Shown here: positions 16,102-29,085 of the stretch, one piece after another | Numbering within the stretch: the stretch's first letter is position 1 | Layout of the letters: each line of letters begins with the position of its first letter | From: Bacteroidota bacterium | Lineage (GTDB): Bacteria > Bacteroidota > Bacteroidia > Cytophagales > Cyclobacteriaceae | DNA: 64,000 nucleotides | Direction of reading: 5' to 3' | NCBI GenBank assembly: GCA_018266395.1 | Contig: JAFEAM010000017.1 | Coordinates: 1 to 64,000 of the forward strand | Translations under genes and position numbers: made by a program | Notes under the pieces: generated by a model | Database searches by the model: none | What the model saw: the letters and a program-made list of their open reading frames with translations, nothing else | Told to the model about the DNA's origin: nothing

Positions 16102-16800
16102 TCAAGCCATCACCCTCTCCAACTTCTCCTTCCACTTCTCCCAATCCGGCATCATTTTTCTTTGAAGGTCAAAGAATTTAGCACTATGGTGTGGATGAAT
16201 GAGGTGGCACAATTCGTGTGTAATCACGTACTCAATGCACGCCCTGGGCGCTTTGATCAACTCAGGATTGAGTATGATTTTGCCCTTTGGGGTACAACTG
16301 CCCCAGCGGGACCTCATGGACTGTAAGTACAATCCCGTTGGTCTCACCTTGTAGCGTGCGAACCTGGCAACGAGGGGTTCAGCGATCTCTGAAAATTTCT
16401 CAATGGCCTGCCTGCGGTACCAGGCGCCCAACACTGCCTTAACAGTTGATTTCTTCCTGATCGAAACTTCAATGGTGGTGCGCTTGCGATGCACACCATT
16501 CTTTTTGCCATGAGTTACTTTCAAAACGTATTGCCGGCCCAGGAACAGGTGGCTTTCGCCGCTGACATACCTCCTGGCTGGAGTGCGGGGATGAAAACTG
16601 AGAAAGAAGTCTTCCTGCCTTAAAATCCATGGAGCACGCTTGATGACACGTTGATTGATCTTTTCAATGGATGCACCTACCGGAGCCTTGACAATAATTT
16701 GTAAATCCGGGGTAACTGAAATACCGAGTGTTTTCCTCCCATTGTATTCCAGGCGGAAGCGAATTTCCTTCGATCCAAAATGAACAATGTGGTCGGTCAC
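16102..16800 (-). CDS. M48-like zinc metallopeptidase (DUF45/YgjP family)
   Basis: The 232-residue protein carries the DUF45/YgjP signature: MRSRWGSCTPKG at 162-173, the zincin helix H195-E-L-C-H199, and the third ligand region HPHHSAKFF (203-211). It is cytoplasmic. Its GTG start overlaps the hsdR stop by four bases (GTGA), so it is translationally coupled to hsdR and belongs to the restriction operon. Homologues are often found beside hsdR genes, but the target is unknown; processing or turnover of the restriction complex is a reasonable inference only. Confidence 0.85.
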   Translation of the reverse strand: MTDHIVHFGSKEIRFRLEYNGRKTLGISVTPDLQIIVKAPVGASIEKINQRVIKRAPWILRQEDFFLSFHPRTPARRYVSGESHLFLGRQYVLKVTHGKKNGVHRKRTTIEVSIRKKSTVKAVLGAWYRRQAIEKFSEIAEPLVARFARYKVRPTGLYLQSMRSRWGSCTPKGKIILNPELIKAPRACIEYVITHELCHLIHPHHSAKFFDLQRKMMPDWEKWKEKLERVMA

Positions 16801-19800
16801 TTGTAACGGACTTTAGCCACTTCTATGTATCGTTCTGCCATGGCATCCATCTCGCCAAAGGATAAGTCCAGGGCGTGTTTGTCACGCACCTCGTCAATAA
16901 GGTAGTCGCCAATGTCGATCTGGAGTTTGCCGGTTATGTTGGATTTGTACTGCCAGTCGACCACGGGCTTACCGTTATCCAGAACTGCTTTGCGGATGAG
17001 TTCATCAATATGAAGTGCCGCATCAATGGATATTTCCTTGCGAAGATTTGCATCTGGAATCTTTTCGTTCAGGGACTCGGTGGACAGCCCGAAGAAAGCC
17101 TTGGCTGTCTCTTTACCTTCTAGTTCTTTTGGAATGTCCGCATCTGTATGCGAAAGCACCGATTCCATGATTTCATTCACTCTTGTCAGGTACTGAGCCT
17201 CACTGATACGATGTTCCTCATATTCGCGGATGGTGTCTCTGAGCATCTCAGAGAACTTCCTGAAAAACGCGGGGTCTTCCTCCATCTTCTCAGAGATGTG
17301 CTTGGCCGTTCGTGAAGCAATCTTGTCAGCCTTGGCTGCCACACCTTCTGTCTTCTCTACCTCAGCCTGAAACTTCTCCTTGTCGAAGATGTTGACTAGG
17401 TCCGTAATGACCTTGACTTCGTCGGTCTCAATGTGTGTATCAATGAGCTTCTGGATTTGCCCCTCATACTGACTATAATCCACAGCATCAGAGTATCGCT
17501 GGATAACGTTGGCACGCAGTTTCAAGAAAAAGGCAAGATCATCTTTGTATTTGTCAATAGTCCTGGCGTCAACCTGCTTGTGAAAGTCGATGGAGGACAT
17601 CGCCACCTTCAAGGCCTTCGCAAACATCGACAGCTTGTCATAGAATACAGTTCTTACCGCTATATCACGAAGTAGCTGCGCATAGGCTTCTGCATCCCGG
17701 CGGTTGGCGATGGTCTTGAAAATATCCCAGACCTCTGCGTGCTTTTGCGGCAGTTTCCTGATCTCTTCGATGATATTGGTGAGTGTGCCCTGGAGATCGG
17801 CCTCGTCAAATTCATCGAGCGTGGAATACAGCTCAAGAGCATTGTCTAGGTCACCCAATACTCCATAATAATCTATGATGTAGCCGAAATCCTTATCGGG
17901 ATAAACCCTGTTTACGCGGGCAATGGCCTGAAGCAGGGTATGACCTTTCAAACTGCGGGTCAGGTACAACACGGCGTTCTTCGGTTCGTCAAAGCCAGTG
18001 AGCAGTTTGTCCACTACGATAATGATCTCAGGTTCCGGCGTATTTTTGAAGCGGTTGATCAGGTTATCCTGGTATTTCTTGGGCGTGCCATGTTCATTCA
18101 TCATCCGCTCCCAGAATTTCTTCACCCTGTCGCTTGACTTCGCAAAGGCGCTGTCTTCGCCTTCACGGTCATCCGGTGGAGAAATCAGCAATTCCGTTGA
18201 CACTATACCAATCTCATCAAGAAAGTCCTTGTACTTTACTGCCGCGTCTTTGCTTTGACATACGAGCTGGGCCTTGAAAGGAGTTCTCTTCCAGTTGTCA
18301 CGGTAATGCTGACTGATGTCCCAGGCAATGGCATAGATCTTCTGATCAGCGACATTCAGTTGGTCCGCCCTGGAGAACTTACGCTTTAGGTCTGCCTTCT
18401 GGTAGTCATTCAGGGGTTCCGATATCAATGCGAAATAGTTGTCAATGGGCGCCTCATTGACTTTCTGCACGGCAAAGCGCCCTTCATATAACAGAGGCAC
18501 TACGGCTTTATCCTTGACAGCCTGATCAACGGTGTAGCTGTCGATGATGCCACCAAACTTCAATGCCGTGTTTTTCTCCTTCTTGAATAATGGTGTACCA
18601 GTAAGTGCCAGGTAGCATGCATTGGGTAGCGTCTTCTGCATGTCTATGTTGAACATGCCGTGCTGACTGCGGTGCCCTTCATCGACTAAAACGAATATGT
18701 CCGGAGAGGTGAGCGGATTGGGAATTCTGCGTACCGCCGCATCAAACTTATTGATCACCGTGGTAACCACTGCATCGCTCTTGCTTTCCAGTAACTCAAT
18801 AAGACGCTGACCAGTGGTGGCATTCTCCACCGGCTTACCGCACTTCCGAAAGGTCTTGGTGATCTGGTCATCCAGGTCAATGCGATCGGTGACGAGAATA
18901 ATTTTTGGATTGCGGATGCTTTTTTCCAGGGCAATAGCCTGGGCCAACATCACCATGGTGAGTGACTTACCGCTTCCCTGCGTGTGCCATATCACACCTC
19001 CTTGCCGACGACCATGGTCGACATTTCGAATACGAGCCAGCGTCTTCTTGATAGCGAAAAACTGCTGGTAGCGCGTAATTTTCTTTTCGCCGTTGTCGAA
19101 GGTGATAAAATTGAAGGCCAGGTCCAGCAATCGCTCAGGACGGCAAAGGTTAAAAAGGTAATTATCCTGAACGGTGGGCAGAATGTTTTCAGTTTCCAAT
19201 GCATCAAAATGCCGGCGTACATAGCGAAACCTGTCGCTGAACAACTTGTCTTTTTGATCGGTTGGTAAAGGCTGATTCTTAAGGACCCTTAGCCGGTCCT
19301 CATACTCCTTCCTCTCCGCACTACCCAATCTCTCTTCCCATTTAGCCCAAAACTCAGGCTTCGTACCGTTGGTGGCAAAGGCTGCCTGGTCGGTGGCCAT
19401 GCTTATGATCAATTGTGCATAGACATACAGTGACCGGATTCCATCTTCCTGCTGGTTGCGCAGGTGTTGTGAGATAGCCTGCTCCAGTGGCTCCTTCATA
19501 TCAGGGCGCTTGCATTCGATGATGCAGAGTGGAATGCCGTTTACAAACAACACAATGTCAGGGCGATAGTGTTCCTTGCTTGTACTGCGCATCACGCTGT
19601 ACTCTTCCGTTACATGAAAGACATTGTTTGTGGGGTTCTCCCAGTCTATGTATTGTAAGGTAAAGCTCTTCTTGTCACCGTCTATGCTTTGTTCCAGGGC
19701 CTTGCCCAAGGTGAGAAGGTTATAGGCGGCTTCGCATGCATTGATGTAACCCTCATTCATGGGGAGATCTCTCAATGCCAGAATCCCATGCTCAATATTG

Positions 19801-20018
19801 GAATCACTAAAAATGGTAGTTCGTGTGGAACTGATACGTGGTGAGTTGATGACTTTGAGCTGTCTTCGCAGCACGTCTTCCAATAGCACGTTCACTGTCT
19901 TCTCACCGCGTAACTTCAGGGCCTCTTCCTGGGTCAAATAGATGTATCCCATCTTCTGAAGAAGTTGCAAGGCCGGAATTTGGCTGATGTGGTCTTCGCG
20001 GAAGCTAGGTAAAGACAT
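16797..20018 (-). CDS. hsdR: Type I restriction endonuclease subunit R
   Basis: The 1073-residue motor and nuclease subunit of a type I restriction system. I start it at the ATG at 20018; the longer frame begins at TTG. The N-terminal nuclease has PDIVLFVNGIPLCIIECKRPD, giving D154, E168 and K170 of the PD-(D/E)xK site. The SF2 translocase has a P-loop GSGKS at 348-352, DEGH at 446-449 and a LTGTP motif. C-terminal helices bind the methylase core. A gap of 160 bases separates it from the upstream NTPase gene, the longest gap inside the operon, so an internal promoter is possible. Length and motif order look intact. Confidence 0.95.
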   Translation of the reverse strand: MSLPSFREDHISQIPALQLLQKMGYIYLTQEEALKLRGEKTVNVLLEDVLRRQLKVINSPRISSTRTTIFSDSNIEHGILALRDLPMNEGYINACEAAYNLLTLGKALEQSIDGDKKSFTLQYIDWENPTNNVFHVTEEYSVMRSTSKEHYRPDIVLFVNGIPLCIIECKRPDMKEPLEQAISQHLRNQQEDGIRSLYVYAQLIISMATDQAAFATNGTKPEFWAKWEERLGSAERKEYEDRLRVLKNQPLPTDQKDKLFSDRFRYVRRHFDALETENILPTVQDNYLFNLCRPERLLDLAFNFITFDNGEKKITRYQQFFAIKKTLARIRNVDHGRRQGGVIWHTQGSGKSLTMVMLAQAIALEKSIRNPKIILVTDRIDLDDQITKTFRKCGKPVENATTGQRLIELLESKSDAVVTTVINKFDAAVRRIPNPLTSPDIFVLVDEGHRSQHGMFNIDMQKTLPNACYLALTGTPLFKKEKNTALKFGGIIDSYTVDQAVKDKAVVPLLYEGRFAVQKVNEAPIDNYFALISEPLNDYQKADLKRKFSRADQLNVADQKIYAIAWDISQHYRDNWKRTPFKAQLVCQSKDAAVKYKDFLDEIGIVSTELLISPPDDREGEDSAFAKSSDRVKKFWERMMNEHGTPKKYQDNLINRFKNTPEPEIIIVVDKLLTGFDEPKNAVLYLTRSLKGHTLLQAIARVNRVYPDKDFGYIIDYYGVLGDLDNALELYSTLDEFDEADLQGTLTNIIEEIRKLPQKHAEVWDIFKTIANRRDAEAYAQLLRDIAVRTVFYDKLSMFAKALKVAMSSIDFHKQVDARTIDKYKDDLAFFLKLRANVIQRYSDAVDYSQYEGQIQKLIDTHIETDEVKVITDLVNIFDKEKFQAEVEKTEGVAAKADKIASRTAKHISEKMEEDPAFFRKFSEMLRDTIREYEEHRISEAQYLTRVNEIMESVLSHTDADIPKELEGKETAKAFFGLSTESLNEKIPDANLRKEISIDAALHIDELIRKAVLDNGKPVVDWQYKSNITGKLQIDIGDYLIDEVRDKHALDLSFGEMDAMAERYIEVAKVRYK

Positions 20019-20178
20019 GGTCCGGATTATGATTGGGACAATATTAACAGCTATGATTTGCTGAGGTAACAACTAACAGTTCGCGATTCCCCACAATTGA
20101 CTCATAAAAGATTTCAGATAAAACCGGGATAAGGTTTGGGGAGATAGTCTATCAAAAGGTGTAAACTGCATACGCTGG

Positions 20179-22284
20179 TTATTTGATTGATAATCTGTAC
20201 TTGTTAAGGAAGGAAATCAATTTCGGATTTAACGCCAGTGCCTTCAGGTCTGACCAATTGATCCCGTACTGATTTAGTTTCTCTTCATCAAAATGATACT
20301 GATGATCAGAAGGATTCTTTGCAAGCACCTTTAGATTGACCAAGTATGCAAGCATTTTGGTCCTAATTGGATGATCCTTTACGATTGCTTTTTCAATGAA
20401 TTCGTAATGCTTGGCAAAATCACCTCTACCGTGCTTTCTGAATGGAGAAAGTATCATCTTCAGTGCATATAATTCATCATCATAACCTTCAGCATTGGAT
20501 GGCACAAATTTCTGATAATAATCAGACCATGGGAACACCTCACCATTAGGCCAGTTGATCCTGACATTTCCATTACCTGTCTTATGAAGAATCAAGGAAT
20601 GATCTTCTTGAAGACAATCCTTTGCCATCATGCTAATATCGGAGTCATAGCTACAGTTCAGGTGAAATTCCTTTCCTCTAAGACGTATTTTCTTTGCTGA
20701 GATGTCTACATCAAATAATTCAAATGCACCACCCTCTCTTCCAAGAACCAATTCTTGATCAATATCTATTGTTGCATGATGCAACCTTCTCTCAAAAACA
20801 AGGGGATCGAGCTCGTCAATATGACAGTCTAAATGCAAATTGGAAGCCTTCGCACCATCTGAATTGACAATATCAACTGCATACTTTTTTGAAGACGTCT
20901 CCTTAATAAAGGTGAAAAGCCTACTATCTTCAAGTCCTAGCCTAGCAGCTACTGACTCATAAAGATGTCCTACATGCGGTCCTCTACATTGACCATTGTG
21001 AAACCTATTATAGAAGAAAGCGAACAATGGAGTTAAAACGAAACGACCATTGTCAAGGTATTTTTTACAAGAGTCCTCGTAATATGGGAACATGAGCATT
21101 TTTCCAATGCAGTAATCCCTGAAAGCTGGGCTATTAAACTCACCTGCCCTTAAGAATGGATGGTTAGGCAAAAACTGAGAAACTGAACTAACGTATTCTG
21201 AAAGCATCCAATCAGGCACATGATCGGCGTGCACTTTAGGATTAATCCGTCTACCATTAGCCAAATAGGTTATAAGAGCTTTCACTTGCTCGCCAGGGCT
21301 ATAGAGCTCAGTCCATCCATCCCATTCTTTTGGCACATTTCTAATATTTCCTTTTAATGGGACTACTATTTTTTCCTGCTCTCGCAACAATAGCCTTTCA
21401 ATAAATTCAGCGATTACTTCCATCCCCTCCAAAGAGTTTCGTTTTTCTTCAAAAAACCTAAATACTTCTTCATAGTTTGAATCAAACAAGAAACTTCCTA
21501 TAGTCTGAAGCACAGGGGAGTAACCAACAAAGGATCTTGTTTCAGAATTCGTCCAAATGTTATTGGCTTTGCTGTCAATCCCAGAACCAATTGCCGTGAA
21601 TATTGCTTCAATGGCCTTCTCAAAGGGTACTCTATGGTTATCGTATTCCGTGTCTCCTTTACTCCTTAGGTATTCTTTCACAAATTGTACAGAACCATCG
21701 TGGTCGAAGTAGTCAATTTCATACATTGAATAACTATTAGCCCCGCCCAATTCTTCGAGCTTCATTTGCAAGAACTCAGCGGTTTCTGAACGCGAAAAGA
21801 AGATTAAATTGGGATGACTTGAACCGGTACAGCTCCTAAAAATGTCCTTAACAAAAGTCTCAACTCCTTCCCATCCACTAATTATTTCAGCTTCGTCGAA
21901 AGCATCGAAACAGATTGAAAGCTCACCTTTAGAAATGCTTGACACAACATCGCTTAATTTCCTTGATCCAAATACTTTGGCCACAGTTCCAATAAAAGAA
22001 TTATCGCCAAGCTTCAGCAAAGACAAATCCCAATAGAGGCCTTTTTTATCAAATGCCAACCTTTTAGCAAAGGTAGTTTTACCAACTGCACCGGGAGCAG
22101 AGACAATTATAATGGAACAATTGTTCTCGTGCTTGATAACTCTAAGCCGAGGAGCAATGTAAGTTACAGGGGCCTCTGGTCTTCCAAGACCATCGCGCTC
22201 GTCAGTTTCCATTGCGTATTGGACTGTTGATGTCCAAATTTCTCTTGTTACTGTTAATGCATCAACCAATGTGACCTCTTTCAT
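20179..22284 (-). CDS. NACHT-like P-loop NTPase inside the type I RM operon
   Basis: The 701-residue protein has a P-loop APGAVGKT at 63-70, a Walker B with the NACHT/STAND-style acidic pattern CFDAFDEAE (D127, D130, E131), and a sensor-like FFSRSET at about 162-168. After the NTPase come helical segments (about 200-450), a beta-rich stretch (about 480-600, for example IDQELVLGREGGAFELFDVDISAKKIRLRG) and a helical end that could form a winged helix. No N-terminal nuclease or TIR effector is present; only about 60 residues precede the P-loop. It lies 19 bases after hsdS, in the same operon. A role in defence signalling or in control of the RM complex is inference. Confidence 0.75.
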   Translation of the reverse strand: MKEVTLVDALTVTREIWTSTVQYAMETDERDGLGRPEAPVTYIAPRLRVIKHENNCSIIIVSAPGAVGKTTFAKRLAFDKKGLYWDLSLLKLGDNSFIGTVAKVFGSRKLSDVVSSISKGELSICFDAFDEAEIISGWEGVETFVKDIFRSCTGSSHPNLIFFSRSETAEFLQMKLEELGGANSYSMYEIDYFDHDGSVQFVKEYLRSKGDTEYDNHRVPFEKAIEAIFTAIGSGIDSKANNIWTNSETRSFVGYSPVLQTIGSFLFDSNYEEVFRFFEEKRNSLEGMEVIAEFIERLLLREQEKIVVPLKGNIRNVPKEWDGWTELYSPGEQVKALITYLANGRRINPKVHADHVPDWMLSEYVSSVSQFLPNHPFLRAGEFNSPAFRDYCIGKMLMFPYYEDSCKKYLDNGRFVLTPLFAFFYNRFHNGQCRGPHVGHLYESVAARLGLEDSRLFTFIKETSSKKYAVDIVNSDGAKASNLHLDCHIDELDPLVFERRLHHATIDIDQELVLGREGGAFELFDVDISAKKIRLRGKEFHLNCSYDSDISMMAKDCLQEDHSLILHKTGNGNVRINWPNGEVFPWSDYYQKFVPSNAEGYDDELYALKMILSPFRKHGRGDFAKHYEFIEKAIVKDHPIRTKMLAYLVNLKVLAKNPSDHQYHFDEEKLNQYGINWSDLKALALNPKLISFLNKYRLSIK

Positions 22285-22303
22285 AAACCGCCTTCATTAA
22301 TAT

Positions 22304-23485
22304 TCATAAATTCAAACGCGTTCTTCCTGTCAACAATGCCTGGATCAATCCTTGCTTCTGTTGGTCCAGACTTTCAACCAAGCGCTTCAAAAGAAATAGT
22401 TCTTTTTCACTCTCTTTGATGACGTTAGCAATTACTTTTTGCTCAGCTAATTGTGGTATATCGTAGTGGATCGCAAGGAAAGCCTCAACCTTGACGGCCA
22501 TTCTTTCTACTAGCGTACCTTCCACAATTGAAGCATAAAATTTGATTTGGTTTGGCGAGGTAACTAGACTTGAAACAAAGTCCACGTCAAATGGGCGCTT
22601 TAGATGCATTACTTCATAGATGGGTGACACGAGCACTTTGTATCCAAAATTGTTCTTGGCTATTGCCCCCCACCGCAGGTTAGCTGGATTAAATACTATA
22701 TCATTTGGATAGACAACCTTATACTTCTTCTCCGCTATATTCTTAACTAGGAACTCTCTCTCGTACCTTTCTGTTTTAGGTGTTATCCCTTCTTCTATAG
22801 TTAAAGAAAACAAGGGAATCCTTCCATCGTTGACAGCAAATTCCCTTCTAACCTCTAAGAATTCGCAAGCAGCTTTTCGTTCCCAATTTTCATTGTATCC
22901 AAGTCTTCTTTTCCCGGTCAACAACTCACGCATCAGCCACTTTTTCCTAAGCTCCTTCTGAGCGATGAGTTGGGTACTGACTGCAATGGCTCGGTCCCAG
23001 GTCGCAAGGAGGTTGGCAATTGCGATCTGTTCGGGTAATCCGGGAATTGGTAGTTGAATGTTTCTAAGTTGTGCTAACGAAATTTCTCTGAAAGTGCTGC
23101 CTTTTGCGACCTTATTGATTTCTCGAATCACTGGACGGCTTCTAAGAGCATAAGCGATATACGCTGTAGAGAATTGGCTATTGTTGACTGAAATACGAGC
23201 TGTGCCTTGTGTAAGATTTGCAACTTTTAACATTGCTGGCACTATACTAACCTGCCCAATGTTGCCACGCAGGGAGAATACTATTTGGCCAGGGTTCACT
23301 TCAGAACGCTTATATTTATTAGCAATCTCATATGACGTATTGCTGAGCTTGGACAAATCAATTTCGCCGCCAACATCGGTGCTCTTAATATAAGGAATGC
23401 CACCAGGCACCTCAGGGCCAGCTTGCACTATACCATAAACAATCGGTTTATCAGTAATTTCTTTCAAGGCTAAGACTTTCCACAT
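22304..23485 (-). CDS. hsdS: Type I restriction specificity subunit S (two target domains)
   Basis: The 393-residue protein has the full HsdS layout: TRD1 (about 1-150, ending REISLAQLRNIQLPIPGLPEQ), a conserved helical spacer (about 150-195, ending LLTGKRRL), TRD2 (about 205-345, ending IPQLAEQKVIANV) and a second conserved helix (about 350-393, ending LLTGRTRL). The repeated LLTGKRRL/LLTGRTRL marks the internal duplication. It recognises a bipartite DNA site and binds two HsdM subunits. The recognition sequence cannot be predicted. It lies 20 bases after the fic gene and 19 before the NTPase gene. Confidence 0.92.
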   Translation of the reverse strand: MWKVLALKEITDKPIVYGIVQAGPEVPGGIPYIKSTDVGGEIDLSKLSNTSYEIANKYKRSEVNPGQIVFSLRGNIGQVSIVPAMLKVANLTQGTARISVNNSQFSTAYIAYALRSRPVIREINKVAKGSTFREISLAQLRNIQLPIPGLPEQIAIANLLATWDRAIAVSTQLIAQKELRKKWLMRELLTGKRRLGYNENWERKAACEFLEVRREFAVNDGRIPLFSLTIEEGITPKTERYEREFLVKNIAEKKYKVVYPNDIVFNPANLRWGAIAKNNFGYKVLVSPIYEVMHLKRPFDVDFVSSLVTSPNQIKFYASIVEGTLVERMAVKVEAFLAIHYDIPQLAEQKVIANVIKESEKELFLLKRLVESLDQQKQGLIQALLTGRTRLNL

Positions 23486-23505
23486 CTAGCTATCCTGATT
23501 TGTAT

Positions 23506-24843
23506 CTATAAATCCTTCCCAGTTGCCTGTTTATAATTCTCCTTGAATCTTAATAACGTATCAGAAGTAGTTTCATCAACGATTCTGGCAATTTCGGTCT
23601 CAGTGAGCTGTTGCGAATACAATTTCTTTAGTCCTGGTCGTCGCTCAGGAACCTGCATCTCATTAATTCTGTAATCAAATTCCTCAAGTTGTATTTTGAG
23701 TTGGGCATTAAGCCAAAACGTATTGGCACCCGCACGATTAAACCCGCCCCACTGAAAGTTGATTGTTATCTCTCTTACTCGGTTGCGCTTAAAATACTCT
23801 GGAAGGAATAAATCAACCGCTGATTTACTGCCAGAGTTGCCAGTGCCATCCATAAAGGTGCTTATTTCAAAATCAGCAAAGAAGGAATTGAATTTGGACA
23901 GCCTGATATATAAGGCGTCAAAAAGGGGTTTAATTGATTGCTCAAAAACGTCTATTACAAGGTCCGGAGTTCGTCTAACAACCTTTGCCTCCTCATTCTT
24001 GAGTTTAATGTCTATTTGTTTGAGTTCCTTTTCCAGGTCATCGGGTTCTTCAATGTCCCCACCCTTGATTGCTGTGTCAACCATTTCCATAGAACGGATG
24101 AGCAGATCGAGCATGAGTCCATAGTAAAAGTCTTTGCTCCCCCCATAGCCTTGCACATCGGCCAAGTATTGGTAGTATTTTGCTTTATCTCCCGTTTTGA
24201 TAATAATTGGAGGGTAACCCCTTGAAATCAGAATAAGATTCATCAATATTCTTGCCGTACGGCCGTTCCCATCATAGAAAGGATGTATGGTCAAGTATTT
24301 CAGATGAAATTCTATCGCCAGTATCGCAGGGTGGATAATGCTGTTATCCTGCTTTTCATTTTCTGATGAAAGCCAGTTAATGAGTTTATGCAATTCCTCG
24401 GCAACATCCTCAGGTTTAACGAAATCAAATCGCTCGCCCTTATAGTTAAGAATATAATTATCGACTGTTTTCCATGCACCAATCTTAGCTTTGTTCTCGT
24501 CTGTTTCCTCGTGCATTATGGCCTTGTGGATATCCTTGATGCGTTTTTCCGAAATGTTCAATTCACCCTTACCGATCTTTAGTATCTCAGTTATGGCGTC
24601 ATCGTGACCGCGCATTTCAAGCACATCTCGGATTGGCTTGCCATGAATAGTGATATTACCAATCATGATACTGCGGGTTTCATCTTTTGTCAACGTGTTA
24701 CCCTCCATTGTATTGGAGTAGTAATTCCAGTCAAGCCGGAACTTATAATTGATTTTTTTCAGCAACTCAGATGATAGTTTTCCGTGACCATCGATACTGG
24801 CTTTTAGTTGACCAATCACCTTAAGCTTTTCTGCAATCTCCAT
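23506..24843 (-). CDS. Fic family protein (class II, N-terminal inhibitory helix)
   Basis: The 445-residue protein has the Fic active site HPFYDGNGR at 187-195 with the catalytic H187. The inhibitory motif (S/T)xxxE(G/N) is S43NTMEG48, in front of the Fic core, which makes it a class II self-inhibited Fic. The C-terminal 200 residues, including GGDIEEPDDLEKELKQIDIKLKNEE (about 260-285) and a later alpha/beta part, are not in the compact Fic fold and may be a target-binding module. The expected activity is NMP transfer, usually AMP, to a hydroxyl of a protein. It sits between hsdM and hsdS with a 4-base gap to hsdM, so it is an integral cargo gene of the operon. Confidence 0.88.
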   Translation of the reverse strand: MEIAEKLKVIGQLKASIDGHGKLSSELLKKINYKFRLDWNYYSNTMEGNTLTKDETRSIMIGNITIHGKPIRDVLEMRGHDDAITEILKIGKGELNISEKRIKDIHKAIMHEETDENKAKIGAWKTVDNYILNYKGERFDFVKPEDVAEELHKLINWLSSENEKQDNSIIHPAILAIEFHLKYLTIHPFYDGNGRTARILMNLILISRGYPPIIIKTGDKAKYYQYLADVQGYGGSKDFYYGLMLDLLIRSMEMVDTAIKGGDIEEPDDLEKELKQIDIKLKNEEAKVVRRTPDLVIDVFEQSIKPLFDALYIRLSKFNSFFADFEISTFMDGTGNSGSKSAVDLFLPEYFKRNRVREITINFQWGGFNRAGANTFWLNAQLKIQLEEFDYRINEMQVPERRPGLKKLYSQQLTETEIARIVDETTSDTLLRFKENYKQATGKDL

Positions 24844-24847
24844 TTGA

Positions 24848-26374
24848 TTATTTTTGAAGTTCTTTCAAATATTTCTCCATCTGACTCTGGACAAGTTTCA
24901 ACTCTTCCTGCAATCCGTCTATTTCATTTTGCACTTTGAAAATATCAACCTCTGCCTCCTCCTCAAACGTATCCACATACCTCGCAATGTTCAGATTGAA
25001 CTCATTCCCTGCAATCTCCTCCGGTGTAGCCACATAGCTGTACTTCTCTTCAGCAACACCTTCCTTGAGTTTGCCAGCATTGAAATCCAGATAAGTCTCC
25101 ACAATATTGTCTATATCCTCCATGCGTAGCTTGTTCTGGTTTTTGCCGGCCTCAAAGTGCTGACTGGCATCAATGAAGAGATTGTTGTTGGTCTTCTTGT
25201 CCTTATTGAATACCAGGATGGCGGCAGGGATGCCTGTGCCAAAGAAGAGATTGGACGGGAGACCGATTACTGCCTCAAGCAGGTTCTCTTCAATGGTTTT
25301 CTGCCGGATCTTACCCTCACTGCCGCCGCGGAATAGAACACCATGTGGCACCACTACTCCGGCTTTGCCATGTTCATTCAAAGTCTCAATCATGTGGCTG
25401 ATGAAGGCCCAGTCTCCCTTGCTCTTGGGCGGTGTGCCACGCCAGAAACGATTGTACTTGTCGGACACGGCTTCGTCTGCGCCCCATTTATCCAGGGAGA
25501 AAGGCGGATTGGCTACGACTGTGTCAAACTTCATCAGGTTGTCGCCTTCTTTCAACTTGGGGTTCCGGATAGTGTCACCCCAACGGATGGTGGCGTTGTC
25601 AAAGCCGTGCAGGAACATGTTCATCACCGCCAAGGCCCACGTGCTGCCGTTGGCTTCCTGACCATACAGGGAGAAGTTATCAGAACCCACTTCCTGCCCG
25701 GCCTTGATGAGCAATGATCCGGAACCGCAGGTGGGATCGCAGATTCGTGCACCGGGTTTCGACTTGGTGAGCCTGGCGATGAGGGTGGAAACTTCAGCGG
25801 GTGTGTAAAATTCTCCGGCCTTCTTCCCTGCATCGCTGGCAAAATTGGCAATCAGGTATTCGTACACACTGCCGATGACATCGTGTCCTTGTAAGTGTGA
25901 AGGACGCAGGTCGAGCTTGGCGTCGCTGAAGTCAAGGAGCAGGTTTTTCAGCCGGGTATTCTTGTCCTTGGCATCTCCAAGGTTGGAACTGTTGAAGTCA
26001 ATGTTGCGGAAGATACCACTGCCGTCTTCGCTGCTCAGTTTCTCCCGGTTCGATTCCTCCAGATCGTTCAGGGCCACGTTGATCAGCTCACCGATGTTGG
26101 CCTCGTTGCGATGCTCGAACAGGTAGTCGAAGGAGCAATGCTCCGGCACGACGAACCGCTCGTGCTTCATGGCTCTGGCTGCGCGTTCTTTGTCGCCTTT
26201 ATACCTGGTCAGATATTCATTGTACTTGTCCTTATGCACATCACTCACATACTTCAAAAACAGCATGGTGAGAATGTAGTCCTTGTACTGGCTGGGATCG
26301 ATGACTCCGCGAAACGTATCGCAGGCCTTCCATACAATGTTGTTGATTTCCTTCTGTGAGATTTTGTCTGCCAT
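24848..26374 (-). CDS. hsdM: Type I restriction methyltransferase subunit M
   Basis: The 508-residue N6-adenine methyltransferase has an N-terminal HsdM_N helical domain (about 8-140), the AdoMet motif DPTCGSGS at 213-220, the catalytic NPPF at 289-292 and a conserved AGEFYTPAEV just before the core. The C-terminal 40 residues form a coiled coil (NEIDGLQEELKLVQSQMEKYLKELQK), the usual HsdS contact. It protects host DNA and with HsdS and HsdR forms the restriction complex. It is five bases after the half-size HsdS gene, so the two are co-transcribed. Confidence 0.95.
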   Translation of the reverse strand: MADKISQKEINNIVWKACDTFRGVIDPSQYKDYILTMLFLKYVSDVHKDKYNEYLTRYKGDKERAARAMKHERFVVPEHCSFDYLFEHRNEANIGELINVALNDLEESNREKLSSEDGSGIFRNIDFNSSNLGDAKDKNTRLKNLLLDFSDAKLDLRPSHLQGHDVIGSVYEYLIANFASDAGKKAGEFYTPAEVSTLIARLTKSKPGARICDPTCGSGSLLIKAGQEVGSDNFSLYGQEANGSTWALAVMNMFLHGFDNATIRWGDTIRNPKLKEGDNLMKFDTVVANPPFSLDKWGADEAVSDKYNRFWRGTPPKSKGDWAFISHMIETLNEHGKAGVVVPHGVLFRGGSEGKIRQKTIEENLLEAVIGLPSNLFFGTGIPAAILVFNKDKKTNNNLFIDASQHFEAGKNQNKLRMEDIDNIVETYLDFNAGKLKEGVAEEKYSYVATPEEIAGNEFNLNIARYVDTFEEEAEVDIFKVQNEIDGLQEELKLVQSQMEKYLKELQK

Positions 26375-26379
26375 AATGG

Positions 26380-26952
26380 TTAACGGGTTGCTGCTCGCAG
26401 CAATTGATATTTAAGATACTGATCCTTTTTCTCCTCCAGGGTTCTGCTCAAGGATTTTTCCTTGTTCCGCAATTCCTGGACAGAAACAATTTGTTGCTGT
26501 CGCTCCATTGGAGGGATGGCTACGGGCAGCTTGCTGAGATTGCTGATAGAAATGGACGGTACGGTTGTGCCCAACTGCTTGTGGAGCATCAGAACATCGG
26601 GCGTGTGGCCCAGGTACCAGGCGAGGTAATGAGGATCAATGCCTTCCATGTTCTCCCGCTTAAGCCTGATCACAATAAAAGTAGAAGAAGCTACTGCAGG
26701 CACCGCTATTTCATCCTCATCAAATACCACAGCATAGTTATAGAGTCCCTTGGCTGCAAATAACACATCACCATGGTGGAGCAGGTGCTTTTCAGTCTTC
26801 GGGCTGGATTTCACCTGGGGCCTGACTGTCTGGTCAAACATGCCAAATTCATTGAAGTGGATTCCCTGGAGGTAATAGGTATCCGCCACGGCATCTGTCT
26901 TTAAATAGAGACCAGTGGTGAGCACAGCGATATTTTCCAGCGTAATTGGCAT
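26380..26952 (-). CDS. Half-size type I specificity subunit (single TRD)
   Basis: From the ATG at 26952 the protein has 190 residues, about half of a normal HsdS. It has one TRD-like region ending GTTVPSISISNLSKLPVAIPPMERQQQIV, the canonical end of a Methylase_S domain, followed by one conserved-region helix (ELRNKEKSLSRTLEEKKDQYLKYQLL). It is the first gene of the operon, before hsdM. Half-size HsdS proteins can dimerise to give symmetric recognition or combine with other subunits. No frame remnants of a second TRD are visible on its 3' side, so it looks like a designed short protein rather than a fresh truncation. Confidence 0.8.
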   Translation of the reverse strand: MPITLENIAVLTTGLYLKTDAVADTYYLQGIHFNEFGMFDQTVRPQVKSSPKTEKHLLHHGDVLFAAKGLYNYAVVFDEDEIAVPAVASSTFIVIRLKRENMEGIDPHYLAWYLGHTPDVLMLHKQLGTTVPSISISNLSKLPVAIPPMERQQQIVSVQELRNKEKSLSRTLEEKKDQYLKYQLLRAATR

Positions 26953-27052
26953 TATTCCTTCGAACGACTGCAAAGGTAGAATAGTTCAATTAATTATGCA
27001 GTATATCATATACTAATAGAATAGTGTTTCAATAATATGACCATAACATGGT

Positions 27053-27096: not shown

Positions 27097-27117
27097 AGGG
27101 CACGGCATGCCCTTATT
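27097..27117. promoter_or_regulatory. Second inverted repeat overlapping the Fic start codon
   Basis: Arms AGGGCA (27097-27102) and TGCCCT (27108-27113) flank CGGCA, and the right side continues as GCCCTTATT (27109-27117), the same half-site as in the upstream operator. The annotated ATG at 27107 is inside it. If the alternative ATG at 27131 is used, the site falls in the leader instead. Confidence 0.6.
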
Positions 27118-28216
27118 CAACCAGGCTGAAATGGCATTTGATCCTCTCGTACCATATAATGAACTGCCCGGCCTTCCGCCGGTAGAAGAGCTGGAAACAG
27201 CCGGTATCCTGAAGCTTTCGATTCGGGCTCACCGGGCATTGGCCAAACTGGAAGGCTCGATTCATACCCTTCCCAATCCTTCCATCCTGATCGACTCTAT
27301 CGGTTTACAGGAAGCCAAAGTCAGTTCCGAGATTGAGAATATCGTCACCACCCATGATGAGCTGTACCAATACGCCATCGCAGACCGGGCAGTAGAAAAT
27401 GCAGCAACCAAAGAAGTACTCCACTACAAGCAAGCACTGTGGAACGGATTCAATGAAGTAAAAGAGAAAGGCGCGTTAACCACGAACTTGTTCATCAGGA
27501 TCGTTCAAACCATCAAAGAGAACCAGGCAGGCATTCGCACCACGCCGGGTACACAGATCATCAACGACCGGACCCGCGAAGTGATTTACACGCCGCCTAT
27601 GGCTGGCGACCTTATCCGCGATAAACTCAAGAATCTTGAGCAGTTCCTGAACCTGAATGATGATGGTCTTGATCCTCTTGTAAAAATGGCCGTGGCTCAT
27701 TACCAGTTTGAGGCCATTCATCCCTTCAGCGATGGAAATGGCAGAACCGGGCGCATTATTAACATTCTGTACCTCGTGCAGCAGGAGTTGATCTCATTAC
27801 CCATCCTGTATATGAGCCGCTACATCCTGGACAACCGCCAGGATTACTACAGGTTGTTGCGCGAAGTAACAGAGAATGGCAACTGGCAGTCATGGATTAA
27901 CTACCTCATCCGTGCTGTTGAAGAAACCAGCAGGCTCACGCTGCACAAGATTGAAGCAATTCGGGAGACCATGTCCACCATGGGAGAGTCAATCAAGAAA
28001 GAGATTCCAAAAATCTACTCCAAGGATTTGATAGAGGTCCTGTTCCACCATCCTTACTCCAAGCGTCAGTTTCTGGAGGATGCCGGAATAGCAAAAGCAA
28101 AGACCGCCGGTGTCTACCTAAGTCAACTGGAAGAGAAGGGGTATTTGAAGAGTGTGGAATTGGGGAGGGAGAGGTTGTATTTGAATATCTCTTTTCTGAA
28201 TATTTTGAAGCAATAG
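27107..28216 (+). CDS. Fic protein adenylyltransferase, SoFic-like, with winged helix
   Basis: The 369-residue protein matches the Shewanella SoFic architecture in length and order: Fic_N region with the inhibitory motif S73SEIEN78 (class II), the core with HYQFEAIHPFSDGNGRTGR (active site HPFSDGNGR at 205-213) and a C-terminal winged helix (about 300-369, KRQFLEDAGIAKAKTAGVYLSQLEEKGYL). It transfers AMP to proteins or to itself. The start at 27107 lies in an inverted repeat; M9 (27131) is an equally good start. Autoregulation through the winged helix and the AAGGGCA repeats is an inference. The next gene follows after 20 bases. Confidence 0.9.
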   Translation: MPLFNQAEMAFDPLVPYNELPGLPPVEELETAGILKLSIRAHRALAKLEGSIHTLPNPSILIDSIGLQEAKVSSEIENIVTTHDELYQYAIADRAVENAATKEVLHYKQALWNGFNEVKEKGALTTNLFIRIVQTIKENQAGIRTTPGTQIINDRTREVIYTPPMAGDLIRDKLKNLEQFLNLNDDGLDPLVKMAVAHYQFEAIHPFSDGNGRTGRIINILYLVQQELISLPILYMSRYILDNRQDYYRLLREVTENGNWQSWINYLIRAVEETSRLTLHKIEAIRETMSTMGESIKKEIPKIYSKDLIEVLFHHPYSKRQFLEDAGIAKAKTAGVYLSQLEEKGYLKSVELGRERLYLNISFLNILKQ

Positions 28217-28236: not shown

Positions 28237-29085
28237 ATGAGATCACCTCATGACCTATGTTTATTGTGCCAGAATTCCAAAGCAGTAAAGAGGAATTCGC
28301 ACATTATTCCGAGGTTCCTGACCAAGTCAATGATCATAAACGACGCGAAAAAGCAGAGCTACCTGATAGACGTAAGGAAGCAGCCAAACAAATCTAAAAT
28401 TGTCCAGGACTCAGCAAAACTTGATTACATACTTTGCCCTCATTGTGAGAGCTATTTTGGTATTCTTGAGAAACGCATCACAAAAAGCCCGCTCCAAAAG
28501 ATTAGAAATCAGATTCCTCCCAAAGATGTAGAGTTCGTTACCAATGCCGGTGGGCTAACCCATGTACGATTGCACCATTCTGACATACTCAGTTTCCATT
28601 TGTTTTGGCTGTCCATTCTTTGGAGATGTTCTATCTCTACTGAGGAACTATTCAAAGGCGTTAAACTTGAGCCCGGCTTCGAGGAATCTTTGAGAATAGC
28701 TTTGTTGAATTACAAGTCGACCAGGGAAGCAGAATTTTCCAAGCTAATCCAGGCACATGAGTCGACTCTGCCCTTCGTTCGCTATGTATTATTAACACCA
28801 AAAACGCTTGGCAAAAGATCTAATGGAATTGTTGCAATAATCAAGTCTAAAGCTCCGCTACACGTGCTGGCGTTAAATGAGTACTGGCTTGCAATGTCCA
28901 ACGACCCCGCAGATGAATTCATCAATAACTTGAACGAGATCAGCAACCGAACGCAAGAGATGAATTCAGTCAAAATTTGGATCCTTGATAAAGAAGCTTG
29001 GGATAACGTCCATAGAGATCAAACTGCTCGACTCGTAAATCTTCATTTTCAACATTTGAAAGATCAAGAGCATCACAATTCCTGA
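28237..29085 (+). CDS. HNH-like zinc-binding protein
   Basis: The 282-residue protein begins with a C8xxC11 pair, then SHIIPRF (H22), and a second knuckle C67PHC70-E. This order of CxxC, (E/S)HIIP and CxxC resembles a treble-clef HNH nuclease or an HNH-derived zinc finger. The rest is mixed alpha/beta with a hydrophobic patch LSFHLFWLSILWRC (about 116-130). The canonical HNH asparagine and last histidine are not obvious, so nuclease activity is uncertain. It lies 20 bases after the SoFic-like gene and is probably co-transcribed with it, at the edge of the restriction island. Confidence 0.6.
   Translation: MRSPHDLCLLCQNSKAVKRNSHIIPRFLTKSMIINDAKKQSYLIDVRKQPNKSKIVQDSAKLDYILCPHCESYFGILEKRITKSPLQKIRNQIPPKDVEFVTNAGGLTHVRLHHSDILSFHLFWLSILWRCSISTEELFKGVKLEPGFEESLRIALLNYKSTREAEFSKLIQAHESTLPFVRYVLLTPKTLGKRSNGIVAIIKSKAPLHVLALNEYWLAMSNDPADEFINNLNEISNRTQEMNSVKIWILDKEAWDNVHRDQTARLVNLHFQHLKDQEHHNS

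Follow-up and report, generated by a model that had tools for sequence, protein, structure and literature searches.

A recurring type I restriction-modification frame with variable cargo: a seven-gene operon of a Bacteroidota bacterium carrying a Fic protein and a NACHT-like NTPase

The seven-gene operon described here lies within a 64,000-nucleotide stretch of contig JAFEAM010000017.1 from a Bacteroidota bacterium (the window, in the coordinates of which the genes are located). It is one instance of a recurring type I restriction-modification (RM) chassis with the order half-HsdS, HsdM, slot A, HsdS, slot B, HsdR and YgjP-type peptidase, slot A being the interval between hsdM and hsdS and slot B that between hsdS and hsdR. 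In the window slot A is occupied by a Fic gene and slot B by the gene for a NACHT-like STAND NTPase. We favor, at a probability of roughly 0.6, the interpretation that the operon is a type I RM chassis which carries exchangeable and separate defence layers, and in which the half-HsdS probably limits expression.

All seven open reading frames (ORFs) are on the minus strand and were identified with Pfam, NCBIfam and PADLOC (Table 1). The seven genes, their order, their common direction and their spacing are as given in the initial annotation of this DNA, and were confirmed by the ORF coordinates and Pfam: the intergenic gaps are, in order, 5, 4, 20, 19 and 160 bases, and the peptidase gene overlaps hsdR by 4 bases. 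The half-HsdS ORF is open from 26973 (Methylase_S, 26973-26380) and its start was set at ORF residue 8; the hsdR ORF is open from 20072 and its start was set at residue 19, the commonest match start in relatives (none before residue 18), upon which the 160-base gap depends. The presence of an HsdM with an intact NPPF motif, of an HsdS together with a half-HsdS, and of an HsdR with intact nuclease and superfamily 2 motor motifs (PD...ECK and DEGH) makes this a type I RM system by gene content, for which methylation and restriction activity are predicted. The HELCH motif of the peptidase is likewise intact.

Searches with HsdM at E ≤ 1e-190 gave matches in 17 of 395 genomes from the class, 7 of 194 from the order and 15 of 395 from the phylum, its own included and the genome sets overlapping. 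The 38 chassis loci which were read comprise the window, 33 places of HsdM matches and four of the 423 plasmid records with a match. L059 and L033 are one locus, as are L038 and L068. Exclusion of three loci cut by contig ends (L058, L064 and L075) left 35 uncut chassis loci; one more copy, L107, was found later among the control loci and stands outside the 35. The order HsdM, HsdS, HsdR, YgjP-type peptidase is kept in all 35, and 34 are headed by a half-HsdS. The peptidase follows HsdR in every one and is therefore a fixed member, in agreement with the earlier remark that DUF45 peptidases are met near hsd genes. At least one extra ORF is present in slot A or B of all 35, although certain of these are short (e.g. 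105 residues in L065) and possibly spurious, and the cargo of L071, a DUF3800 gene missed by ORF calling, was taken from its annotation. Since the same frame is found in 34 further uncut loci, the cluster in the window is more than chance. Over 34 loci, the identities of HsdR, YgjP, half-HsdS and HsdS correlate with that of HsdM (Spearman 0.77, 0.76, 0.77 and 0.55, respectively; the pairs are not independent). In L052 and L078 HsdR is 54-55% identical to that of the window and HsdM 78-80%, and hence hsdR itself has seemingly been exchanged in some loci. In L074 (7003-10229) hsdR is split into two ORFs overlapping by a few bases, possibly through a frameshift or an assembly error. A same-genus search for an empty site, using DNA 2 kb past the operon, gave only matches of 44-116 bases, none of which defined one.

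The slots, by comparison, are variable in content. The 134 cargo ORFs, to which 37 of the 38 loci contribute, form 72 clusters; five of these ORFs lie between half-HsdS and hsdM. Cargo representatives were scanned with Pfam (30) and PADLOC (20), and no Pfam family at E 0.01 was found for eight of the 30. Judged by model matches, many cargo genes belong to known or candidate defence families. These include: CBASS-type nucleotidyltransferases (L033 and L062; by cluster also L073, L079 and L083), accompanied by SLATT_4 in L062 (by cluster L073) or SAVED in L079 (by cluster L083); a Pycsar cyclase with PycTM (L061; by cluster L084); guanylate-cyclase-like proteins (L033; by cluster L077) and patatin (L033; by cluster L082); Shedu (L085; by annotation L070); an Abi-family gene (L069, by annotation); a protein kinase matching the mad6 and PD-T4-6 models (L084); Tin (L081); Schlafen AlbA_2 (L056, a five-member cluster); RhuM/PDC-S05 (L060, an eight-member cluster); and Bro-N/PDC-S13, KilA-N/PDC-S22, DUF3800/PDC-M04A with PDC-M04B, and PDC-S54. 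Slot B carries SoFic-like proteins in L062 and L073, and one of 28% identity in L079. A three-gene module, specifying a metallophosphatase and two further proteins, occupies slot A in L054 and L077 and slot B in L053, which indicates that it can change slots; the L054 copies of its two other proteins matched no Pfam or PADLOC model. In Escherichia coli the HsdM relative of L072 matches 551 of 5,426 genomes, and in 446 the match covers 80% or more of the query. In the seven loci read, of 30 listed, slot B is empty twice (L125 and L126), contains a YecA-family gene twice (L121 and L122), or contains YecA and a cold-shock-domain gene (L120, L123 and L124); the slot of a wider relative can thus be empty, single or double.

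The Walker A and B motifs of the slot B NTPase are intact. Its Walker B sequence, CFDAFDEAE, is as first read, and residues D127, D130 and E131 are invariant in an alignment of 16 sequences. The protein matched no Pfam, NCBIfam or PADLOC model at E ≤ 0.01, and PF05729 (NACHT) was not matched at E ≤ 1. Among the 16 family members nSTAND3 was matched by eight, AAA_16 by seven and NPHP3_N by six, all weakly (best E 7.1e-4); PADLOC PDC-S01 was weakly matched by eight (best E 5.9e-4) and Pfam NACHT by one (E 0.074). Against the PDB by sequence, phmmer gave no match and the profile of the 16 sequences (A3) nothing better than E 0.045. The model computed from a single sequence was unusable, with a predicted local distance difference test score (pLDDT) of 38.5, and was rejected. 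That computed from A3 has a pLDDT of 77.2 and a predicted template modelling (TM) score of 0.71, and is laid out as an NTPase core, helices, a strand-rich part (approximately residues 454-577) and a C-terminal helical part; no N-terminal effector domain was found, residues 1-40 being poorly predicted (pLDDT below 50). When this model was compared with the PDB using Foldseek, the NACHT of NLRP3 ranked first (E 1.9e-7, probability 1.00) and the five best entries were all NLRP3, so that the label “NACHT-like” given in the initial annotation holds. The whole-length TM-scores of these five matches are low (0.23-0.31), indicating that the NTPase resembles NLRP3 in part only. By its modelled fold we class it as a NACHT-like STAND protein, not as a proven bNACHT.

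Within the 35 chassis loci the NTPase occurs once, in slot B of the window. The 395 class genomes yielded its own gene and two marginal matches, the 395 phylum genomes its own gene only, and phage records no relative; none was found either in the first scans of viral contigs (with a three-sequence alignment) and of genomes (with a single sequence). Elsewhere, 22 relatives were located on three plasmids, seven genome contigs and twelve IMG/VR viral contigs. Those on viral contigs include near copies (L090 with L099; L091-L095), and the 22 are consequently not independent cases; L006 is cut by the end of its record. Fourteen of them stand alone, i.e. with no same-strand ORF within 60 bases. In the flanks covered, hsd genes accompany one relative (L010, which follows an EcoR124-type hsdS-hsdR) and a detectable Fic none of the 22, the neighbors on viral contigs having had no family search. 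Other companions are a DUF6602 and an AAA protein (L013), a HEPN protein (L012), an AAA_21 protein with one of 203 residues (L011) and close unnamed neighbors (L097). In two similar acidophile plasmids (L004, 12825-17022, and L006) the relative ends an operon of multiubiquitin, ThiF and DUF6527 genes. In L008 (2600-6475), from a Polaromonas metagenome-assembled genome, it is fused in frame to the end of what looks, by eye, like a glutaminyl-tRNA synthetase; this could mark an insertion at the end of the tRNA-synthetase gene, or be an assembly effect.

The Fic protein of slot A possesses an active motif (HPFYDGNGRTAR) and an inhibitory motif (SNTMEG), both intact. These correspond to HPFx(D/E)GNGRxxR and an N-terminal (S/T)xxxE(G/N), which we take to be the motifs of class II Fic AMP-transferases. 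The protein is class II by motif, and AMP-transferase activity is predicted; it matches PADLOC PDC-S04 (E 4.7e-36) and PDB 3cuc (E 1e-33). Fic genes are present in slot A of eight of the 35 uncut loci (the window, L033, L062, L068, L073, L074, L083 and L084), both motifs being found in all eight. A distant Fic, 26% identical, separates hsdM from hsdS in a type I operon that is not related to the frame (L118, 4403-5722). The earlier statement that Fic genes are met near hsd genes is thus supported.

A perfect GTA-N7-TAC palindrome, GTATATGATATAC, precedes the half-HsdS gene of the window. Among 18 close loci (HsdM at least 70% identical to that of the window, the window included) GTAN7TAC was found before half-HsdS in 16, the 150 upstream bases being read first. 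A distal copy (-61 to -100) is present in 15, a proximal copy (-23 to -26) in 13, and both in 12. In 1000 shuffles the motif occurred in a mean of 0.73 and a maximum of 4 of the 18 loci; it is present in 9 of 220 other upstream regions of 17 close loci (twice in one of the 220), and before hsdS in 1 of 17 and hsdM in none of 18. When 24,576 bipartite motifs were tested on the 16 site-positive loci (L063 and L079 left out) GTAN7TAC was the most enriched, with two copies in 12 of the 16; in 60 shuffles no motif was doubled in more than five loci. The spacings between copies (54, 65, 54, 65, 64, 65, 75, 54, 66, 65, 64 and 68 bases) cluster on a period of about 10.5 (R 0.84, nominal p 2e-4 for loci that are not independent; 0.80 at 10.0 and 0.85 at 11.0). 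A TAnnTTTG sequence, presumably the -7 box consensus of Bacteroidota, lies within 60 bases upstream of half-HsdS in 15 of the 18 close loci, and TACCTTTG in the window fits it. Two phased copies of GTAN7TAC suggest the geometry of a target for a paired half-HsdS, the site being a candidate drawn from promoters. We propose that the half-HsdS may autoregulate the operon through it because this geometry fits a half-HsdS pair, because the motif is at the position of a repressor site, and because the first gene of the RRDM island of E. coli (discussed below) encodes a repressor. A more specific version would have the pair, with or without HsdM, sit on the two phased operators, the level of free methyltransferase being reported by their occupancy or methylation, so that a phage which inhibits or titrates the RM system opens the promoter and co-induces restriction and cargo; to this we assign rather less than an even chance.

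In the interpretation we favor, for which we infer activities, co-transcription, autoregulation and independence of the layers in the cell, the frame of half-HsdS, HsdM, HsdS, HsdR and YgjP-type peptidase would methylate host DNA and cut unmethylated DNA, while the exchangeable genes of slots A and B would be expressed together with it. The class II Fic of slot A, auto-inhibited until released, would then AMP-modify a host target leading to growth arrest, and the NTPase of slot B would sense an infection cue and oligomerize. Both would act as separate second layers alongside restriction. The half-HsdS, as a pair and together with HsdM, probably limits expression of the unit by binding or methylating the GTA-N7-TAC of its own promoter.

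Several observations weigh against this interpretation. When the Fic protein was searched against 198 class genomes, 17 had a close match, its own included, and an hsd frame like that of the window, with other genes inside, was seen in two (L033 and L038) of the first 18 other Fic neighborhoods. The identity of the slot A Fic proteins follows that of HsdM (Spearman 0.69; 28 non-independent pairs); Fic is thus partly inherited with the frame, and the idea that it moves freely between loci was rejected. The half-HsdS is missing from the Klebsiella plasmid locus L072, and an annotated one is absent from all seven E. coli loci read. The G+C content of the cargo is below that of hsdM and hsdR in all 33 uncut loci for which it was computed (L066 and L071 left out), the difference in the window (9.5 points) being the second largest. 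Since hsdS is also below hsdM and hsdR in 33 of 33, low G+C content is no proof of cargo import and was abandoned as such. Cargo is not peculiar to the frame either. In 24 frame-holding genomes the hsdM family gave 16 further matches in 15 regions, of which ten served as controls (L107 is the frame itself, L108 has no HsdM ORF, L109 no HsdR, and L112 and L115 are cut). Nine of the ten contain ORFs among their M, S and R genes, the exception being L113, so that embedding is general among type I loci in these genomes, the frame being one case of it. Control L110 likewise ends in a YgjP-like gene, and the ORFs embedded in the controls include the distant Fic of L118 described above and a SoFic in L119. 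As to the promoter, the window has a single GTAN7TAC before half-HsdS and lacks the copy nearest the gene; as a whole it is not enriched for the motif (10 sites versus 16.4 expected). In 4 of 17 close loci, one of them the window, the motif also occurs in the 200 bases preceding hsdR, and it is found in only 3 of 18 distant loci. It is missing from the close loci L063 and L079 and from L107 (HsdM 72% identical). On a half-HsdS profile trained on site-positive loci, 15 such loci score 238-307 and L063, L079 and L107 score 194, 190 and 130, respectively; the distant L082 and L083 carry the site at scores of only 123 and 132, evidence against a simple rule linking half-HsdS to site.

The promoter motif might instead be the site of another regulator, or a feature of the promoter itself, the half-HsdS being merely a second specificity subunit with a symmetric target. 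The first G of the proximal copy falls within the TAnnTTTG box in 9 of the 18 close loci, the first gene of RRDM encodes a separate repressor, RptR, with other operators, and GAAN6TAC, the motif most often doubled in the distant loci, is asymmetric. This reading does not account well for the distal copy, which lies 54-75 bases away with the same half-sites and flanks as the proximal one. No other gene before half-HsdS was seen to be common to all close loci, and the three site-less loci have diverged half-HsdS proteins, with the profile scores given above. We consider it on the unlikely side. GAAN6TAC itself was found, within 120 bases, in 9 of 20 loci (the 18 distant loci with L063 and L079) and doubled in five; as five is also the top count of any motif in 60 shuffles, it was retained as a lead only and not as the operator of the distant loci. 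GAAN7TTC, present before hsdM in 10 of 18 stretches, was discarded because it lies mostly inside the half-HsdS coding sequence. In L076 two GTAN6TAC sites, with a spacer one base shorter than in the close loci, lie 52 bases apart before half-HsdS.

Fic and the NTPase could also act as guards, sequestered by or watching the RM complex and firing when a phage blocks restriction, as does PrrC in EcoprrI. PrrC is a genuine precedent for a gene lodged inside a type I operon; genes that run in one direction with short gaps permit coupling, and the recurrence of Fic in slot A, with an identity which partly tracks that of HsdM, is in keeping with it. However, the slots hold cargo of many unrelated kinds, some of it (CBASS, Pycsar and Shedu) known as stand-alone systems, and 21 of the 22 NTPase relatives have no detectable hsd neighbors in the flanks covered; a guard function appears unlikely. 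Still less probable is the proposal of the initial annotation that Fic, NTPase and RM subunits form one integrated restriction and signaling machine. Tight order, a single direction, the NACHT-like fold and the recurrence of Fic are compatible with it, but the order hsdM-fic-hsdS-NTPase-hsdR, which was expected to repeat around the NTPase, is confined to the window among the 35 chassis loci, no NTPase relative has a detectable Fic and most stand alone, and the identical frame elsewhere contains wholly different cargo. Since the neighboring genes vary while the frame stays, the cargo is separable and a single combined machine is not supported. What survives of that proposal is the NACHT-like fold, the Fic companion and the fixed peptidase; outside the window Fic co-occurs with type I hsd genes and the NTPase barely so (L010). 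An ordinary RM operon with chance neighbors is very improbable, for although Fic genes are common (the 17 of 198 genomes above), frame and slots recur, the genes are co-directional with 4-20-base gaps, and many known or candidate defence families (counted without a formal enrichment test) are among the cargo.

A chassis with exchangeable cargo turns what looked like a one-off seven-gene cluster into a recognizable carrier, the restriction frame of which can be used as bait for new defence genes. The NTPase family, which also has members on viral contigs and in further bacteria, is one such candidate. Were autoregulation by the half-HsdS true, there would be a direct tie between the methylation state of a type I system and expression of an entire defence island, and the way in which type I operons carrying toxic cargo are kept silent and later turned on would become open to test.

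Table 1. Features of the operon and its surroundings in window coordinates
Feature	Position	Strand	Basis or remark
Half-HsdS, one target recognition domain and one helical region; first gene of the operon	26380..26952	-	PF01420 E 6e-9, residues 57-166 of 197
HsdM, adenine methyltransferase subunit	24848..26374	-	N6_Mtase E 9.7e-103; HsdM_N E 1.2e-26; TIGR00497 above cut-off
Slot A cargo: Fic, class II by motif, candidate AMP-transferase toxin	23506..24843	-	PF02661 E 7.8e-20
HsdS, full-length specificity subunit	22304..23485	-	PF01420 E 2.7e-17; PADLOC Specificity_I E 9.1e-73, residues 106-389
Slot B cargo: 701-residue NACHT-like STAND NTPase, unnamed family	20179..22284	-	Fold model, weak family matches
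HsdR, nuclease/translocase subunit	16797..20018	-	HSDR_N E 8.5e-38; SWI2_SNF2 E 6.9e-77; T1R_D3; TIGR00348 above cut-off
YgjP-like (SprT/M48-type) metallopeptidase; last gene of the operon	16102..16800	-	PF01863 E 8e-54; HELCH
Low-G+C block fic-hsdS-NTPase (40.8, 42.2 and 39.5%)	20179..24843	.	versus hsdM 50.4%, hsdR 48.5%
GTA-N7-TAC site, perfect palindrome GTATATGATATAC	27001..27013	-	Upstream of half-HsdS, in the interval separating it from the divergent SoFic gene
TACCTTTG, fits TAnnTTTG -7 box	26971..26978	-	Downstream of the GTATATGATATAC palindrome
Further GTAN7TAC match in the 160-base gap before hsdR	20161..20173	.	Possible second control point, weak
SoFic-type Fic gene, divergent from the operon	27107..28216	+	PADLOC SoFic E 1.7e-112
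282-residue unnamed gene, downstream of the SoFic gene	28237..29085	+	

The divergent SoFic gene and the operon have a common control region of about 150 bases, which contains the GTAN7TAC site.

Defence genes embedded in type I operons have already been published (PMC11411939, PMC12255303, PMC12409362). The RRDM island of E. coli E2348/69 comprises RptR, HsdM, HsdS, DarTG2, HsdR and an M48 peptidase; RptR represses the whole unit, and its authors regard the site as a potential recombination hotspot (PMC12255303). RRDM and the operon in the window are alike in having cargo between hsdS and hsdR, an M48-type peptidase after hsdR and a DNA-binding first gene, and in forming a defence island. By description, RRDM differs in its DarTG2 cargo, its empty slot A and its RptR head with TAGCTA operators. 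The first gene in the window is a half-HsdS and not RptR, and no TAGCTA was seen by eye in the 160 bases upstream. TgvAB, a two-gene GmrSD-like type IV nuclease system in the VPI-2 type I operon of Vibrio cholerae, which protects alone, likewise lies between hsdS and hsdR; it has neither Fic nor STAND NTPase, and a half-HsdS is not mentioned in the text available (PMC11411939). In EcoprrI the PrrC anticodon nuclease is embedded in a type I operon and held by the RM complex (PMC12707154, PMC3874165); the extra gene inside the operon is shared with the window, for which such coupling is a conjecture. The embedded PADLOC candidates are credited to Payne et al. 2024 in PMC12255303, PMC11411939 and PMC12988326. 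The window Fic is a match to one of them, PDC-S04, other slot genes match PDC-S05, S10, S13, S22, S54 and M04A/B, and the window NTPase matches none. With bNACHT/Avs proteins (PMC12169576) the NTPase shares a NACHT-like fold and extra C-terminal parts, and differs from them in that Pfam NACHT does not recognize it and an N-terminal effector domain was not found.

There are two precedents for the half-HsdS. The engineered EcoR124INT half-subunit pairs and reads GAAN7TTC (PMC3320862), and an engineered Staphylococcus CC398-1 M-half-S reads ACCN5GGT in a paper which also points out the likeness of a half-HsdS dimer to a repressor (PMC6158711). As in the case predicted for the window, a single target recognition domain is combined with a symmetric bipartite site of fixed spacing. 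These two are laboratory constructs, whereas the half-HsdS in the window is natural, stands beside a full hsdS and has its presumed site in its own promoter. Among the papers listed in searches on half or truncated HsdS and on autoregulated type I operons, subscription papers and preprints aside, no title or abstract opening describes a natural half-HsdS that acts on the promoter of its own gene. Within the reach of these searches, the two-slot frame headed by a half-HsdS, the NTPase family as its cargo and the promoter motif are new.

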